From Okeania sp. KiyG1 (GTDB taxonomy: Bacteria; Cyanobacteriota; Cyanobacteriia; Cyanobacteriales; Microcoleaceae), in the NCBI RefSeq assembly GCF_014132355.1, contig NZ_BLZO01000079.1, forward strand, positions 1 through 64,000: a DNA stretch of 64,000 nucleotides. The letters run 5' to 3'. Each line of letters begins with the position of its first letter. The first letter of the stretch is position 1. Under the pieces are notes generated by a model. That model ran no database searches. It had not been told where the DNA came from and was given only the letters and a program-made list of their open reading frames with translations. Positions 36,429 through 46,289 of this stretch are shown here, one piece after another. Made by a program: the position numbers and the translations under genes.

Positions 36429-36818
36429 ATTTCTCAGGAATCATATATCAGGGGTCATTTCAGTTATCAGTTATCAGTTATCAGTTATCAGTTACCTCTG
36501 GCTGTTTCGCAGCGTGACCTAGGAAACCCAGAGGCTTGAAATAATAAAATTTATTCTTTCTTGGTCGATTGGATATGTTGAGGGGACATCAGCATCCCAC
36601 CCTACGGGAAGCTCCGCTTTTCATCCCCTTGAAAGGGGAGGCTTTGGACTTCATTTTTTGGTAACTTATACAGATTATACAAAATATTTTGAGTGCATAA
36701 GTTCAAATCATCAGAAACTATACTCAAATAGAACTTTTAGGAAAATATATTGTTAGTGCTGATCAGCATTAATACTAATTGAATAAGGTTAAAAATATAA
36801 TATGGAGGTGTAAGGAGG
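36429..36818. other. Spacer upstream of the sigma-like gene
   Basis: No gene. AGTTATCAGTTATC repeats lie at 36460-36493. The sequence nearest the next gene is AT-rich, and AAGGAGG ends one base before the ATG at 36819. That spacing is unusually tight and may mean the real start is elsewhere or initiation is weak. Confidence 0.45.
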
Positions 36819-38186
36819 ATGAAAAATGGTTCCACCAATAACTACTGGACATTATGCAAAATTGATTTAACTAGCTCTGATGTGTCTGGTTCTCATAGAG
36901 GATATCGACAGGAGGTACTATTACCTGTTCAGAAACAATTTGAAATCTGGTTTCCGTCTATTGCTGAACTCAAAAAACTCTCCTCTCAAGATAACCGAAA
37001 AATTCAAGCTACTTTACTATCTCACTTTCGTTCTCAAAATTCTGCTTCTTCTAAGGAATGCAGCATAACAGCAGGACTTTCTTTACGTTGCTACATTTCC
37101 CATGCCATTGTTGACGCTTGTCAAAAACTGGTTCAAGAATTTGGCGATCGCTATCCTTTTCGCCTCCGAGATGTGTTGTACCTGGTACTCACTGATGATG
37201 GTAAGACAAAAAACATTAAGCAAGTTCAGGAAAACTCTCAGTCTTCTTACTCCTATTTCTGGGAGGAAATTCTGAGAAGTTTCAATCCCGATCAAGGTGG
37301 ACTCTGGGGTTGGACTAATTTATGCACCCGTCGCCACTCAGAACTTACTCGAACGCTATGGGTAGAATTTGGTTTATCTTTAACTACTCCTTGGGCAAAA
37401 CTAAATAAGATAAAGCGTTACCAAATGGAAGCTCTTTCACCTCAAGAACGGGATGTGGTAGAAGCGTTTCATGGGGTATATCGGCGCGACAGACGAGAAC
37501 AGGGTGCAAGGGGCAAATGTCCTGAACCTTCTGAGTCTCAACTTCAGGAAATGCGCGATCGCCTTTTTCCCAGGGGAGTTTTATATAATTCTTCAGATGA
37601 ACTACTTGAACAATTGAAAACTATTGCTCAGTTTCTACAGGAACAAATATTAAATCCAACTGAGATTTCACCACCCTCTAATACTTCAGCAATGGAACTT
37701 GAATTTCTAGACGAACATCGCGATCTAGCTCTTATGGATGCTATTGAGAGAGTGCTTTCTCAACGTTTGCATAAACTACAAAAAAGTGCTTGGTATAGTG
37801 AATTTGCTCCTGATTTTTTGCCTATGTTACGACTAATTTATTGTGAAAATAAATCTCAAAGTGAAGTAGCTCGGCAATTAAATATGAATAATCAATCTCA
37901 AGTTAGTCGCATCTTAAAACTTAAGCAAATGCTGAAGCAAATTCGAGAACAGGTAATGGAGAAAATGCTGCAAATTTTGTTAAAGAAAGCAGAGTTAAAT
38001 TCCAGTCAAGGGGTTTTAGATGCAAATGCTCTTGATTCTTTAATTGAACTATTAAGTCGTTATTTAGATGAAACCGTTTTTATAGAGGCAGTTAAGGAAA
38101 ATTCTACAGGGAGGAAATACAAAAAAATGACAAGTTTGTTTGCTGAAAAAATGCGCTATTATCTTAAGGATAGTCAGCTTATTTGA
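36819..38186 (+). CDS. Sigma-70-like / HTH regulator of the DUF1822-CHAT module
   Basis: The 455-residue product has SLRCYISHAIVDACQKLVQE and FWEEILRSFNPDQGGLWGWT in the middle. VVEAFHGVYRRDRREQGARG is a phrase I associate with cyanobacterial sigma-70-like proteins encoded beside DUF1822 and CHAT/CHASE2 genes. Near residues 345-385 a helix-turn-helix like sigma region 4 is visible (LIYCENKSQSEVARQLNMNN, then QSQVSRILKLKQML). The N-terminal 80 residues are unknown. It starts a three-gene set on the plus strand, 91 bp from the next gene. AAGGAGG ends one base before the ATG. It may direct transcription in response to the CHAT receptor; this is inference. Confidence 0.65.
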   Translation: MKNGSTNNYWTLCKIDLTSSDVSGSHRGYRQEVLLPVQKQFEIWFPSIAELKKLSSQDNRKIQATLLSHFRSQNSASSKECSITAGLSLRCYISHAIVDACQKLVQEFGDRYPFRLRDVLYLVLTDDGKTKNIKQVQENSQSSYSYFWEEILRSFNPDQGGLWGWTNLCTRRHSELTRTLWVEFGLSLTTPWAKLNKIKRYQMEALSPQERDVVEAFHGVYRRDRREQGARGKCPEPSESQLQEMRDRLFPRGVLYNSSDELLEQLKTIAQFLQEQILNPTEISPPSNTSAMELEFLDEHRDLALMDAIERVLSQRLHKLQKSAWYSEFAPDFLPMLRLIYCENKSQSEVARQLNMNNQSQVSRILKLKQMLKQIREQVMEKMLQILLKKAELNSSQGVLDANALDSLIELLSRYLDETVFIEAVKENSTGRKYKKMTSLFAEKMRYYLKDSQLI

Positions 38187-38277
38187 CATAATAATAAGTA
38201 GTAAAATAACTACATTAATCATTCCATAGATTGCAAAGATAAAACTTAAAATTACAACAATAACTGGGAGCCTTAAT

Positions 38278-39534
38278 ATGACTGATTATAACCAAATAAA
38301 CAGACTATATTACCAACAATTGCACTTAGAAACTATTGATTTAGAACCTGAAGATTTTGAGCAAGCAACTCTTTTGAGCGATCGCTTTAAGAACGAAGCC
38401 CAACAATGGCAAGCTTATGTGAAAATTTTGGGTTTATTAGCACTCAAAAAATGGTTGAGCGATCGCCATTTAACATTAGATAATCAAATTGAATCTTTGC
38501 CACCTCATCAAATTATCAGTTCGGAACCAATTTGCCCTCTGCAAGTCAATGGATTTACAGTTTGCTTACTGACAGATGAGAATATAGTAAATGAAGGAAT
38601 TGAAATTCCTGATAAAATGATTAATACCCCAGAATTTGCTGCTCATTTCTATATCTTGATACAGGTTTCAGTAGAGGAGGAAGAAGCTATTTTAATTGGA
38701 TTTATACGGCACGATCAATTCAAAAATCGGTCTTTACAAAAAAATGAAAGAGGAAATTATCCACTTTCTTTGACTCAACTAAATTATGACTCCAGCCACT
38801 TAATTTTAAATTTGAAATATTTGAATCCGGTAGCTATTAAACTTCCAGAAAAGACCTCGGATGAATCAAAATATTGGGAAAAATTAACAAGTTGGTTAGA
38901 AGGTATTTTTACAGAAACTTGGCAACCAGTGGAAGAGCTTATAAAAAATCGCAAACCGATTATACAAATGGCTTTCAGGTCATATCAAACAACAGAAAAA
39001 TTATCTCCCAAAGTAGTTAAAAAATTTCTTCAACAATTCCAAATAACTGAAAAACCAAGAGACAAAACACAGGTAGATTTATCTCAACCTGAACTCTCAG
39101 ACACAGAAGTAAATAAAGCTCTCGTACAGATTTTACAAACAACAGAAGATGAAGAAACACGCTGGCAAATTGCCGAATTGTTGTGGGAAATTAACCCTAG
39201 TCATCCAGCAGCAGGTGTACGTCGCGCTATCGATCTAGGAATGCAACTAGCAGGAGATCCGGTGGCACTAATGATAGCAATTTTACCCAAACCAAACCAA
39301 AGATTTGCTGTTCTTTCCAGAGTTTATCCTCTTCAAGACCAACGTTTTTTACCAGCAAATTTAAAACTAATTGGTTTAGATGAAATGGGGGAATCTTTAT
39401 TTGAAATTCGTGCTAGACAACGAGATGATTATATTCAGTTCAAATTTACCGCCGATCCAGGCGATCGCTTTAGTCTTCAAGTTAGCCTTAATTCTGCTAC
39501 TGTGACAAAGCACTTTATTATTTCAGTAAAATAG
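38278..39534 (+). CDS. DUF1822-family protein
   Basis: The 418-residue product has a GGGAG ribosome site eight bases upstream. Features: LALKKWLSDRHLTL near residue 55, FAAHFYILIQVSVEEEEAIL near residue 120, and a C-terminal region with LPANLKLIGLDEMGESLFEI. The last part is RDDYIQFKFTADPGDRFSLQ ... FIISVK, the end typical of DUF1822 proteins. The family occurs in cyanobacteria next to sigma-like and CHAT genes. A middle VNKALVQILQTTEDEETRWQ block is helical. No transmembrane or catalytic motif is visible. It may be the cytoplasmic link or substrate of the CHAT protease that follows. Confidence 0.7.
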   Translation: MTDYNQINRLYYQQLHLETIDLEPEDFEQATLLSDRFKNEAQQWQAYVKILGLLALKKWLSDRHLTLDNQIESLPPHQIISSEPICPLQVNGFTVCLLTDENIVNEGIEIPDKMINTPEFAAHFYILIQVSVEEEEAILIGFIRHDQFKNRSLQKNERGNYPLSLTQLNYDSSHLILNLKYLNPVAIKLPEKTSDESKYWEKLTSWLEGIFTETWQPVEELIKNRKPIIQMAFRSYQTTEKLSPKVVKKFLQQFQITEKPRDKTQVDLSQPELSDTEVNKALVQILQTTEDEETRWQIAELLWEINPSHPAAGVRRAIDLGMQLAGDPVALMIAILPKPNQRFAVLSRVYPLQDQRFLPANLKLIGLDEMGESLFEIRARQRDDYIQFKFTADPGDRFSLQVSLNSATVTKHFIISVK

Positions 39535-39837
39535 TAGGTTGGGTTAAGCGGTAGCGCAACCCAACAACAACGTCTAAAAATATTGGTCTGCAACAAGAAT
39601 GTAGGGGCGAATGGCATTTGCTAACGCAAAGCTGCGCTAACGCCCTCTCTGGATATGGCATTTGCCCTCTCTGGATAAGCGTGTTCGTGCGTAAGTCCTG
39701 ATAATATGATATTCTTGTGGAATTAAGATTAGGTGTTGGGTTTCCTGTCCTCAACCCAACCTACAAAGAGCAAATTTTGTGGTTATTAACTATTTAAACA
39801 AATATAATTTTAAAACTACAACAATTAATTAAGAATA
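39535..39837. other. Spacer with two REP-like palindromes inside the CHAT module
   Basis: REP-like units at 39535-39567 (GTAGGTTGGGTTAAGCGG ... CCCAACAAC) and 39733-39765 (GTGTTGGG ... CAACCCAACCTAC) match those around the RAYT gene 9 kb away. Between them are a GTAGGGGCGAATGGCATTTG repeat and TGCGTAAGTCCTGA (39689). The promoter of the next gene, if separate, is in the last 70 bp. Confidence 0.7.
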
Positions 39838-42572
39838 ATGCTTAAACAAGTTGTTATCAGAATAGAAGAAGGCAGTTTTGAATCAGGTTTTTCTGTTTCT
39901 CTAGAGTTTTGGCAAGATGATAAAATCATTGATAAAGAACTCGACTGTCCTAAATTGCCCGCTAACCCAGATTTTCCTATAGTTTATGATAAATGGAAAA
40001 CATTTATACTGAGTTGGGATTAGAAAAACGAGCGATGGAGATTCCAGAAAAGCAAATCACCCATGTCTCCAGTATAGAAGGTTGTCAAAATGCCACTCTA
40101 ACCCTAGAAGGTAATGCAAAAAATTGGTTGAGGGAACCTCAATTTGGAGATATTCGAGGGCGAATTATAGGAAGACTAAAAGATGGAACTTCAAATAAAC
40201 CAGTACGAGTTATCATCGATACATCAAATTCTTATCTGCGTAAATTATCCTGGGATTGTTGGGACTTATTTCAGAAAAAGCGTTTTTTACCCCAGGCAGA
40301 ATTTACCCTCTTGTCTCAATATTCTCAATTTAATCGACCAACAGAAACCTTGCAAAAACCAGTACAAATTCTGGCAATTTTTGGCAGCGATCAGGGGAGT
40401 TTAGAACTCAAGCAAGACCGGAAACTCATTGATAACTTAGAAAGACATGGAGCAAGTATTAAAGCTATTCCAGCGACAGAAAATTCGCTGACTTATGAAG
40501 AGCTATTTAATACTCTTTGGCAAGGAAATTGGGATATTATTTTTTATAGTGGGCACAGTGCTGCTGAGACTATTCAAATTGGTAATACTTTAGAGATACC
40601 AATCCATGCTTTAGGAGAAGCTTTAAAGGAAGCTGCTCCCAGAGTCAAGCTGGCAATTTTTAATTCCTGTGATGGACTCGGTATTGCCGAATATTTAGCT
40701 GATTTGGATATCCCCCATTTGATTGTGATGCGAGAACTTGTTCCCGATCTAGTAGCACAGCGTTTTTTGGAATATTTCCTAGACGAATTTACCCAAAGAA
40801 AACCTCTCCACGCCGCTGTTAGAAAAGCACGGAGACGTTTGCAACATCTAGAATTTCATCTTCCAAATAAATCGTTTTATCCCAGAGCATCTAAACTACC
40901 AGTCCTAATACAAAATCCTACTACACCTGAACTATATTGGCCTGAACCTGAACCTGAACCTGAACCCGAACGTCTAACGCGGCCGCCAATAGCACCCAAG
41001 CAGATAATACAGATAATTCTGTTTTTGTTGATTATCGCTGGTTTTTTGGGAATTTCTAAACTAATCCCTAAACCTGAAACCCTTGAAGATCAAATCAGTC
41101 AAGGTGAGGAAATTCTGGTAAAACTATTTTCACCACGAGATAAACAAAGGGGTGTAGAAGCAGTTGCTATATGTCAGAAACCCTGGAATCATTTTCTACC
41201 TATTTGGAAAAGTAATATTCGACAAGATTGGAGTGATTGTTTTGAAAGCAAAAAAAGTTATCGGGAGGCAGCAAGATATCTTCAGGAAAGCTGGGATAGA
41301 GAACGAAGAGATCCAGAAACTTTAATATATCTCAATAATGCAATTTTAGAAGCTACAGGAGCTGATTTCTATACCATTGCAGTTGTGGTTCCAGTTTTAG
41401 AGGATGAAACAGGGAAGAATGCAGAACTTGCTGAAGAAATCTTGCGGGGAGTAGCTCAAATGCAAACAGAAGTTAACTTGAGTTTAAAGGAAAAATTCTT
41501 TAATTTGACTTTACCAGGTGCAGATTTTCTAGAGTCTAAAAGCTTGAATGGAAAAGGTTTAAAAGTCATTATTGCTAATGATGCTAACAATGAGGAGCAA
41601 GCAAAGAAGGTTGCTAATACAATAGTTAAACAGTCAGAGATTCTAGGTGTTATTGGTCATTGGACCAGTGAGATGACGACTGCAACTGTAGATATATATG
41701 ACCAAAATGAATTAGTAATAGTTTCCCCAGGTACAACCACTTCTGAACTCACCGACGATCCCCGACGGTTTTTCTTCCGAGTTACCACAAATAATTATCT
41801 ACCTACAGATGCAGCGGTTGATGTTTTGATGAGTAATCTAGTGAATCAAAAAAGAGTTGCAATTTTTTATAACCCTGCTAGTCCGTATTCCAGTGATTAC
41901 AAAAAACGATTTGAAGAAAAATTCTTAGAAAAAGTAGGAACAGAAGAAGACATTATTGATTCATTTGATATTTCTCAGCGTAATTTTGATGCTCAAAGCG
42001 CTATTCAAAAAATTAGAAACTCTGGGGAATTAGCAATTGTTTTAATACCAGATGGTCAAGTGAGTAATGCTCTAGATAATGCTCTGGAAATCATTAAAGA
42101 AAACGATGGTCAAAATTGGATGATAGGTAATTGGTCGGTTTATAGTCCGAAAACTTTGAATATTGGTCAATCTCAACTCTTAGAAAAACTGATTTTGACC
42201 GTTCCCTGGCATCCTCTAAGGAATCTAACGTCTTATTTTTCTCAGACCAGTAAGCGGCTTTGGGGAGGGTCTGTCAGTCCTCGCACAGTTTTGAGCTATG
42301 ATGCTGCTCAGGTGCTAATTGAAGGGATTCGACAAAAACCTGATCGCTTAGGAATTCAGAAGAGATTAGCAGATGAAAGTTTCAATTTTGAGGGAGTAAC
42401 AGGAAAAATCGAATTTCAACGAGGGACTGGCGATCGGCAAAAACTACCCTTTGAGTTAGTTAAGGTTGTTCCTTGTCCTACGAATAATGAGTACGGTTTC
42501 AAATTTATTCCTCTGGAGTTAACACCTGAAGCGGCAGAAGTGGTAGAGTCGGAATGTTCGGTTCCTGACTAA
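39838..42572 (+). CDS. Membrane CHAT protease with extracytoplasmic periplasmic-binding-protein sensor (one frameshift)
   Basis: The N-terminal 57 codons (39838 on, LKQVVIRIEEGSFESGFSVS) and the long frame from ATG 39993 belong to one protein. One T is missing near 40007: adding it gives KWKTFYTELGLEKRAME. Counting from 39993: DUF-like N-terminus (1-120), CHAT domain (122-300) with catalytic His 188 (YSGHSAAE) and Cys 226 (FNSCDGLG), PEPEPEPEPE linker, one membrane helix (338-356), then a type I periplasmic binding domain (458-830: VVVPVLEDETGKNAELAEEI ... VIGHWTSEMTTATV). CHAT in the cytoplasm and the binding domain outside is the expected topology. Translation from 39993 alone would keep both domains. 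It follows the sigma-like and DUF1822 genes. Confidence 0.85.
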
Positions 42573-45674: not shown

Positions 45675-46289
45675 TCAATTTTTTACATAAACGCTCGTGT
45701 TTTTTTGAGCTGCTTTAATACCTAAAGTAACCATTCGTGAAATCATAGTTATTAACTTTTCTCGAGCTAGTTCTTGTTGCCAAATCCATCCTTCTCTAGT
45801 AGTAGAATATAGAGGAGGGAGGCGATTGAGAGTATAAGCAATTACATCCACTTTATTAATAGTTCTTGATAGATCGTTGGGTAATACTTTAAGTTGCCGT
45901 TCTATTTCTACAGTTGCTAATGGAATCATAGCATTAAATTCATGTAATATAGGTTTTTGGCGATCGATTACTGCTTTATTATCCTTAAAAGATGGGTGGA
46001 GTGGAGTAGAAAAAATTTTATTGTTTCTTTGGGCTGCTTTAATACCTAAGCTAACTACTCTAGAAATCATATCCGCTAGTTTTTGTGACCGTTGCTGTTG
46101 CCATATTTTTCCTTTTTGTGTTGTAAAATACATCGGTGGTAATCTATTTAGACTATAGGCGGTAACATCAGCTTTATTGATAGAATCAACTATTTCTGGT
46201 GGTAATTTTTGTAACTGTTTTTCTATTTCTAAAATAGTTAGAGGTTCCATTGCATTACGAAAAGTTGAGGTTAAAAGTGACTGACTCAT
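45675..46289 (-). CDS. Tandem double ComFB-domain protein
   Basis: The 204-residue product contains two homologous halves. Half one has EKQLQKLPPEIVDSINKADV ... AYSLNRLPPMYFTT. Half two has ERQLKVLPNDLSRTINKVDV ... AYTLNRLPPLYSTT. Both end with a ...MISR(V/M)V(S/T)LGIKAAQ helix. The ALNRLPPxY signature is that of the late-competence ComFB family, which in cyanobacteria binds cyclic di-nucleotides. ComFB proteins usually have one domain; two in one chain would make a covalent dimer. It is a stand-alone gene. Ligand and partners cannot be judged from sequence. Confidence 0.72.
   Translation of the reverse strand: MSQSLLTSTFRNAMEPLTILEIEKQLQKLPPEIVDSINKADVTAYSLNRLPPMYFTTQKGKIWQQQRSQKLADMISRVVSLGIKAAQRNNKIFSTPLHPSFKDNKAVIDRQKPILHEFNAMIPLATVEIERQLKVLPNDLSRTINKVDVIAYTLNRLPPLYSTTREGWIWQQELAREKLITMISRMVTLGIKAAQKNTSVYVKN

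Follow-up and report, generated by a model that had tools for sequence, protein, structure and literature searches.

A 64,000-nucleotide stretch of the 10.98-Mb genome of the marine cyanobacterium Okeania sp. KiyG1 (contig NZ_BLZO01000079.1 of assembly GCF_014132355.1, positions 1 to 64,000; the whole stretch is called the window) carries three consecutive plus-strand genes. They encode a divergent sigma-like protein (SIG), a DUF1822 protein, and a membrane receptor in which a CHAT peptidase domain, a transmembrane (TM) helix, and a type I periplasmic binding protein (PBP) domain are joined (Table 1). An earlier sequence-only reading had proposed that the three act together, and the open reading frames (ORFs) lie where it placed them, with lengths of 455, 418, and 859 amino acids (aa). 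Based on trees and distance comparisons among relatives, the DUF1822 protein looks two-sided: its N-terminal half co-diversifies with SIG, and its C-terminal half co-diversifies with CHAT. This two-sided role seems to be the new part of the analysis, and we found no description of it in the mostly open-access literature that mentions EACC2 or DUF1822. We judge the odds to be even that these three proteins make up a single transmembrane signaling pathway.

Table 1. Features of the SIG, DUF1822, and receptor locus (positions in the window)
Feature	Position	Strand	Remarks
SIG upstream block	36695..36818	+	Kept in 6 of 7 aligned upstream regions (DNA alignment); L087 deviates
SIG, divergent sigma-70-like protein, 455 aa	36819..38186	+	
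DUF1822 protein, 418 aa, proposed sigma-protease adaptor	38278..39534	+	Pfam PF08852, 272.1 bits (cutoff, 25), profile 1-370 of 370
DUF1822 N-terminal domain, aa 1-181, tracks sigma type	38278..38820	+	Alpha/beta in model
DUF1822 border segment between co-diversifying blocks, aa 172-227	38791..38958	+	Overlaps low-confidence linker, about aa 191-240
DUF1822 helical insert, ~60 aa (aa 240-300), accompanies PBP receptors	38995..39177	+	Model helices 244-255, 275-288, 292-305
DUF1822 C-terminal all-beta domain, aa 313-418, tracks receptor type	39214..39531	+	Model and trees
Repeat element, 231 bp, 15-nt inverted ends	39534..39764	.	Between DUF1822 and receptor, inside operon
Receptor N-terminal piece, 61 codons, other frame than main ORF	39838..40023	+	Residues 1 to 54-56 of 5 intact relatives, 61-72% identity
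CHAT-TM-PBP receptor ORF, 859 aa	39993..42572	+	Frame interrupted relative to relatives
CHAT domain, aa 72-286, His188 and Cys226	40206..40850	+	Pfam, 29.7 bits (cutoff, 24)
Transmembrane helix, aa 341-359	41013..41069	+	Sole strongly hydrophobic stretch
Type I periplasmic binding domain, aa 464-813	41382..42431	+	Pfam Peripla_BP_6, 80.9 bits (cutoff, 31.7)

The two halves of DUF1822 follow different partners

The PBP version of the receptor stands alongside SIG in Okeania, Hydrocoleum, and Lyngbya aestuarii, and there is a second lineage in which a short (~220- to 260-aa) sigma-like gene is accompanied by DUF1822 and CHAT-PBP genes (loci L069, L070, L074, L075, and L076). Of 79 CHAT-DUF1822 pairs, 19 were dropped before counting (14 with no recognized sigma nearby and 5 with an unclassified receptor). 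Sequence sets A4 (n = 73) and A5 (n = 64) were chosen from 77 and 70 listed sequences plus the window's own. In the 60 classified triads, the tree of whole DUF1822 proteins splits by sigma type (100/100) and a PBP clade is rejected (approximately unbiased [AU] test, p 0.001), while in the CHAT tree the PBP receptors group together (85/64, unstarred) and the rejection of a short-sigma clade is marginal (p 0.047).

The half-trees and the insert counts given below cover 75 of 141 DUF1822 rows, namely those with a long or short sigma and a PBP, CHASE2, nSTAND, or TPR-CHAT receptor. The tree of the N half (aa 1 to 206) is split by sigma type (100/100), with a PBP clade rejected at an AU p of 2.3e-5; the tree of the C half (aa 303 to 418, which leaves out the insert) is split by PBP (100/97), with a short-sigma clade rejected (p 0.002). 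Identity between window-type DUF1822s and those of the short-sigma PBP lineage rises from 0.11 to 0.22 in alignment windows up to aa 200 to 0.33 to 0.60 from aa 181 onward, and over the same alignment windows identity between window-type and other long-sigma DUF1822s goes down, from 0.28 to 0.42 to 0.08 to 0.33. Based on the half-trees and this shift in identity, we conclude that the PBP version with a long SIG is, as far as sequence comparison can tell, a mosaic that was joined inside DUF1822.

The same division is seen in the partial rank correlations of distances among the 54 long-SIG triads. The SIG distances correlate with those of the DUF1822 N half (CHAT held constant, 0.75) and not with those of the C half (0.01), and the CHAT distances correlate with those of the C half (SIG held constant, 0.77) and not with those of the N half (0.05). 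When the PBP triads are excluded, leaving 46, the corresponding values are 0.75, 0.05, 0.72, and -0.06. A matrix of segments along the operon resolves into two blocks, SIG with DUF1822 aa 1 to 171 and DUF1822 aa 228 to 410 with CHAT, which meet in aa 172 to 227, and this meeting point coincides with the predicted interdomain linker.

One alternative that we regard as unlikely is that recombination and linkage account for all of this, i.e., that the receptor gene moved together with the downstream half of DUF1822 in a single DNA block and that the two blocks reflect chromosomal neighborhood rather than contact. The order SIG, DUF1822 N half, DUF1822 C half, CHAT is one in which neighbors would be co-inherited, and topological support exists for one exchange only. 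However, linkage predicts the tightest correlation within a single gene, and the distances of the two DUF1822 halves correlate at only 0.36 (0.34 without PBP), compared with 0.81 and 0.82 for the pairs that cross gene borders; the correlation is also lowest at the predicted DUF1822 domain linker. Among the triads, the two half-trees do not contradict each other at any supported split, and thus the PBP exchange is the only demonstrated join and the remainder is matched divergence. A history of many independent exchanges inside DUF1822 is unsupported beyond the PBP case.

Fold of DUF1822 and the insert that accompanies PBP receptors

The structure model of the DUF1822 protein (predicted local distance difference test score, 82.4) consists of an alpha/beta domain (aa 1 to 181), a low-confidence linker, helices between aa 244 and 305, and an Ig-like beta-sandwich (aa 315 to 414). 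DUF1822 is called a TPR protein in the relevant paragraph of Kaur et al. (eLife 2021, PMC8195603), whereas the model here contains no TPR array, and we set that label aside. Pfam gives a weak match of HEAT_2 to aa 280 to 307 (E 0.15). The top Foldseek match is the RsgI4 anti-sigma sensor domain (E 8.6e-4), to which we give no weight, as the beta-sandwich is a common fold.

The insert (50 to 66 aa) is present in all 15 PBP-paired DUF1822s, from both sigma lineages, and is replaced by 9 to 20 aa in all 60 of the other classified DUF1822s. The exceptions are all unclassified rows: L073 has a PBP receptor, no insert, and no recognized sigma, and L171 and L172 have a segment of insert length and no PBP.

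The receptor and the interruption of its gene

As the sequence-only reading had it, the receptor consists of a CHAT domain, one helix, and a type I periplasmic binding domain; both domains score above their Pfam cutoffs, there is a single strongly hydrophobic stretch, and the His and Cys that the reading had named (His188 and Cys226) are kept without exception across the 101 CHAT domains aligned. The solved structures closest to the PBP domain are branched-chain amino-acid binding proteins. Alignment with the Leu/Ile/Val-binding protein shows that the GHxxS serine and the SPxTT threonine are retained, and we take these to correspond to the ligand-binding Ser79 and Thr102. In 14 of 15 CHAT-PBP proteins (the exception is L072), the flank of the helix on the CHAT side carries more positive charge than the flank on the PBP side, as expected for a protease inside and a sensor outside. 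This agrees with the topology originally proposed, from which we infer that CHAT probably faces the cytoplasm and PBP the exterior.

An invariant dyad would also suit a receptor that, after binding its ligand, cleaves itself or some unlinked substrate, with DUF1822 as an uncut scaffold. Activation of an autopeptidase is proposed in the relevant text of PMC8195603. Autoproteolysis by itself, however, leaves the tracking of CHAT by the DUF1822 C half unexplained, and we consider this explanation improbable.

The position given for the receptor ORF is correct, but its start is not the homologous one. In each of 5 intact relatives, residues 1 to 54-56 match the window from 39838 to ~40000, and the remainder matches from ~40000 onward in another frame; relatives with a single ORF are 891 to 912 aa long. 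A conserved N-terminal stretch that may correspond to the constant alpha+beta EACC2 domain, which precedes the caspase domain in EACC2 proteins, is present in the relatives and, in the window, lies in a different frame from the main ORF. The interruption is either an assembly or sequence error or real decay. That the locus is decayed, with a receptor pseudogene and an operon that no longer signals, is an explanation that we take seriously and yet think rather less probable than its opposite. The frame is broken between the N-terminal piece and the rest, the repeat element lies inside the operon, and further CHAT genes of the same genome are broken: at L007 and L008, CHAT-nSTAND-WD40 genes behind DUF1822 are in several pieces, as if decaying. 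On the other hand, the remaining receptor frame stays open over 859 codons, the break could stem from a sequence error, and the pairwise ratios of nonsynonymous to synonymous substitution rates for the CHAT and PBP parts (0.40 to 0.62) are in the same range as those for SIG and DUF1822 (0.30 to 0.52). So small a difference would fit a sequence error or a recent event.

A core of ~55 bp of the repeat element recurs in the same genome, and 50 matches to the element are among the matches listed. In Okeania sp. SIO2B3 (L081), an insertion resembling it sits upstream of SIG, and a single SIG-DUF1822 pair there is followed by two tandem CHAT-PBP genes (L081:12504-18293). At L001:6974-16529, on contig C94 of the window's own genome, a short sigma-like gene and a DUF1822 gene that lacks the ~60-aa insert are followed by a CHAT-TM gene and by PBP genes of their own, an arrangement that looks like a receptor divided between two proteins. 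At L078:6153-8669, the PBP sensor module of the receptor recurs on a Ser/Thr protein kinase, where it follows a transmembrane helix.

SIG is sigma-like by profile comparison and structure model

The description of SIG as a sigma-like factor is supported by profile comparison and by its predicted structure, in which sigma region 2 and region 4 folds are found, but it falls below every curated sigma cutoff by sequence. Pfam detects region 4 only (15.9 bits versus a cutoff of 24.1), and the NCBIfam sigma models give 22.2 bits (cutoff, 234) and 19.6 bits (cutoff, 42.9). SIG is homologous to the extracytoplasmic function (ECF) sigma factors that partner DUF1822. Aligning SIG directly by hhalign to the short sigma-like family, or to the relatives' sigma proteins (the largest ORF at the center of each of 30 loci, individually unchecked), failed. 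ECF sigma factors that adjoin canonical DUF1822 genes (L210, L211, L213, L215, L219, and L221) give weak matches to the type III-E CRISPR sigma model, at 20.9 to 33.2 bits against a cutoff of 100. The nearest named relatives of SIG are from Okeania (71 to 87% identity), and the block upstream of the gene, which Okeania relatives share, is likely a promoter or leader with an AGGAGG ribosome-binding site.

Distribution among cyanobacteria

The three families occur together far beyond this genome, and the survey rules out a unique invention in it. The named SIG set comprises 79 loci, taken from the best 80 out of 150 confirmed relatives, and leans toward relatives of the window. DUF1822 lies downstream of SIG in 73 of these 79 loci, within 300 bp in 67 of them, with a median gap of 15 bp. 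A caspase-fold peptidase is found downstream in 53 (42 EACC2-CHAT, 10 TPR-CHAT, and 1 Peptidase_C14); 16 have no peptidase downstream, and 10 end too soon to judge. In a phylum-wide sample of 194 genomes, DUF1822 was matched in at least 130 and parts of the receptor in at least 87; SIG was matched in 35, with 14 of these matches weak and in one family. This sample and the window's own genome together yield 29 SIG loci, of which 26 are followed by DUF1822 and 16 by CHAT. In contrast to the named set, 20 other loci were hand-picked among the strongest CHAT-only rows of the sample, and 12 were chosen among the strongest DUF1822 rows and additional rows.

The receptors carry a range of C-terminal sensors, among them CHASE2, nSTAND (alone or together with WD40), AAA_35, PBP, and others (L149 is "other" by our own profile and CHASE2 by Pfam). 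At L161, L162, L163, and L167, TPR-CHAT, DUF1822, and CHAT-CHASE2 genes lie on one strand, with two CHAT proteases around one DUF1822. Elsewhere in the window, the minus strand at 45675-46289 encodes a 204-aa protein with two similar halves, in each of which the pattern KLPxE/N...NKxDVxAYxLNRLPPxY is visible by eye.

Comparison with known systems

The locus fits the EACC2-caspase/ECF sigma/DUF1822 neighborhoods that were predicted, with a proposed role in transcription, in one paragraph of PMC8195603, and it belongs to a modular arrangement that is widespread. In common with that description, it has a caspase-fold module with a variable C-terminal sensor (CHASE2, STAND, and others there) next to an ECF sigma and DUF1822; in contrast, the relevant text names no PBP sensors and no split role of DUF1822. 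Proteins with a caspase fold inside the cell and a receptor domain outside it have likewise been described: Asplund-Samuelsson et al. (PLoS One 2012, PMC3501461) list cyanobacterial caspase homologues with CHASE2 or ANF_receptor, including one caspase-ANF_receptor protein in Cyanothece PCC 7424. Those are C14 metacaspases rather than CHAT proteins, with no sigma or DUF1822 partner in the relevant text. In view of these two reports, the sequence-only reading went too far in calling the arrangement unusual.

The nearest experimentally shown logic, by analogy, is that of type III-E CRISPR, in which the CHAT protease Csx29 cuts Csx30, an inhibitor of CASP-sigma (Strecker et al., Science 2022, PMC10028731). 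According to the parts of that paper that bear on this locus, a CHAT protease, a middle protein, and an ECF sigma are shared, and the N part of Csx30 binds the sigma while its C part is cut; unlike the putative receptor here, Csx29 is triggered by RNA-bound Cas7-11 and has no membrane sensor. Homology of Csx30 to DUF1822 was absent among 5 sequence matches at E ≤ 10 and among the listed fold matches, which does not exclude it, and Pfam found no Cas-like proteins among six neighboring proteins, a scan that did not extend to the remainder of the window. Another precedent is HetF of Anabaena, which is proposed in the relevant text of PMC8406250 and PMC12288457 to degrade PatU3, which restrains HetZ. 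HetF shares with the putative receptor here its cyanobacterial origin, its membrane location, its CHAT domain, and the proposed task of relieving a transcription regulator of its inhibitor. Its partners and sensor are different, and the NCBIfam HetF model scores 11.2 bits here, below its cutoff of 1200.

The suggestion that the locus might be a cell-suicide device is not supported, as PADLOC reported no defense or death family and no effector other than the sigma-like protein was found. A defense system was set aside on the same ground, the three proteins having no match in PADLOC; other evidence of defense was not sought.

A proposed signaling pathway

In the pathway that we propose, the PBP domain outside the cytoplasmic membrane would sense a small, probably amino-acid-like ligand, and the signal would pass through the single helix to the inner CHAT cysteine peptidase. 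The peptidase would act on the C half of DUF1822, by docking and most likely also by cleavage in or near the linker or the insert. The N half would hold SIG, and its loss or change would free SIG for transcription of its target genes. An external ligand-binding domain would thereby replace the target RNA that serves as the trigger in the Csx29 system. The co-diversification data fit a DUF1822 adaptor that connects protease and sigma, one in which the N domain would handle the sigma factor while the C domain, together with the insert, would contact the cytoplasmic part of the receptor.

Three considerations weigh against this pathway. Chromosomal linkage could create part of the two-block pattern. 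Sigma-DUF1822 pairs with no adjoining protease exist, which could mean that the protease gene lies elsewhere in the genome or that no protease is needed. Finally, the window's own receptor copy may be nonfunctional owing to the frame interruption, in which case the pathway here may be off, or the receptor may be read without its N-terminal segment.

More generally, and as a tentative proposal in which we have slightly less confidence than in the pathway itself, DUF1822 proteins may be a new class of sigma-holding adaptors. Their N domain would serve in the cytoplasm as an anti-sigma module directed at divergent ECF-type factors, and their C domain would be an exchangeable docking and cleavage module for caspase-fold receptor proteases, with sensors (CHASE2, PBP, and nSTAND/WD40) swapped by joins inside the adaptor. 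This would constitute, in cyanobacteria, a modular route from ligand to protease to sigma that is parallel to, and mechanistically like, the CRISPR Csx29-Csx30-sigma system. If this is true, DUF1822, a large family of unknown function, would gain a concrete role, and bacterial caspase-like proteases, which are mostly discussed as death enzymes, would become signal-transducing receptors that switch genes.

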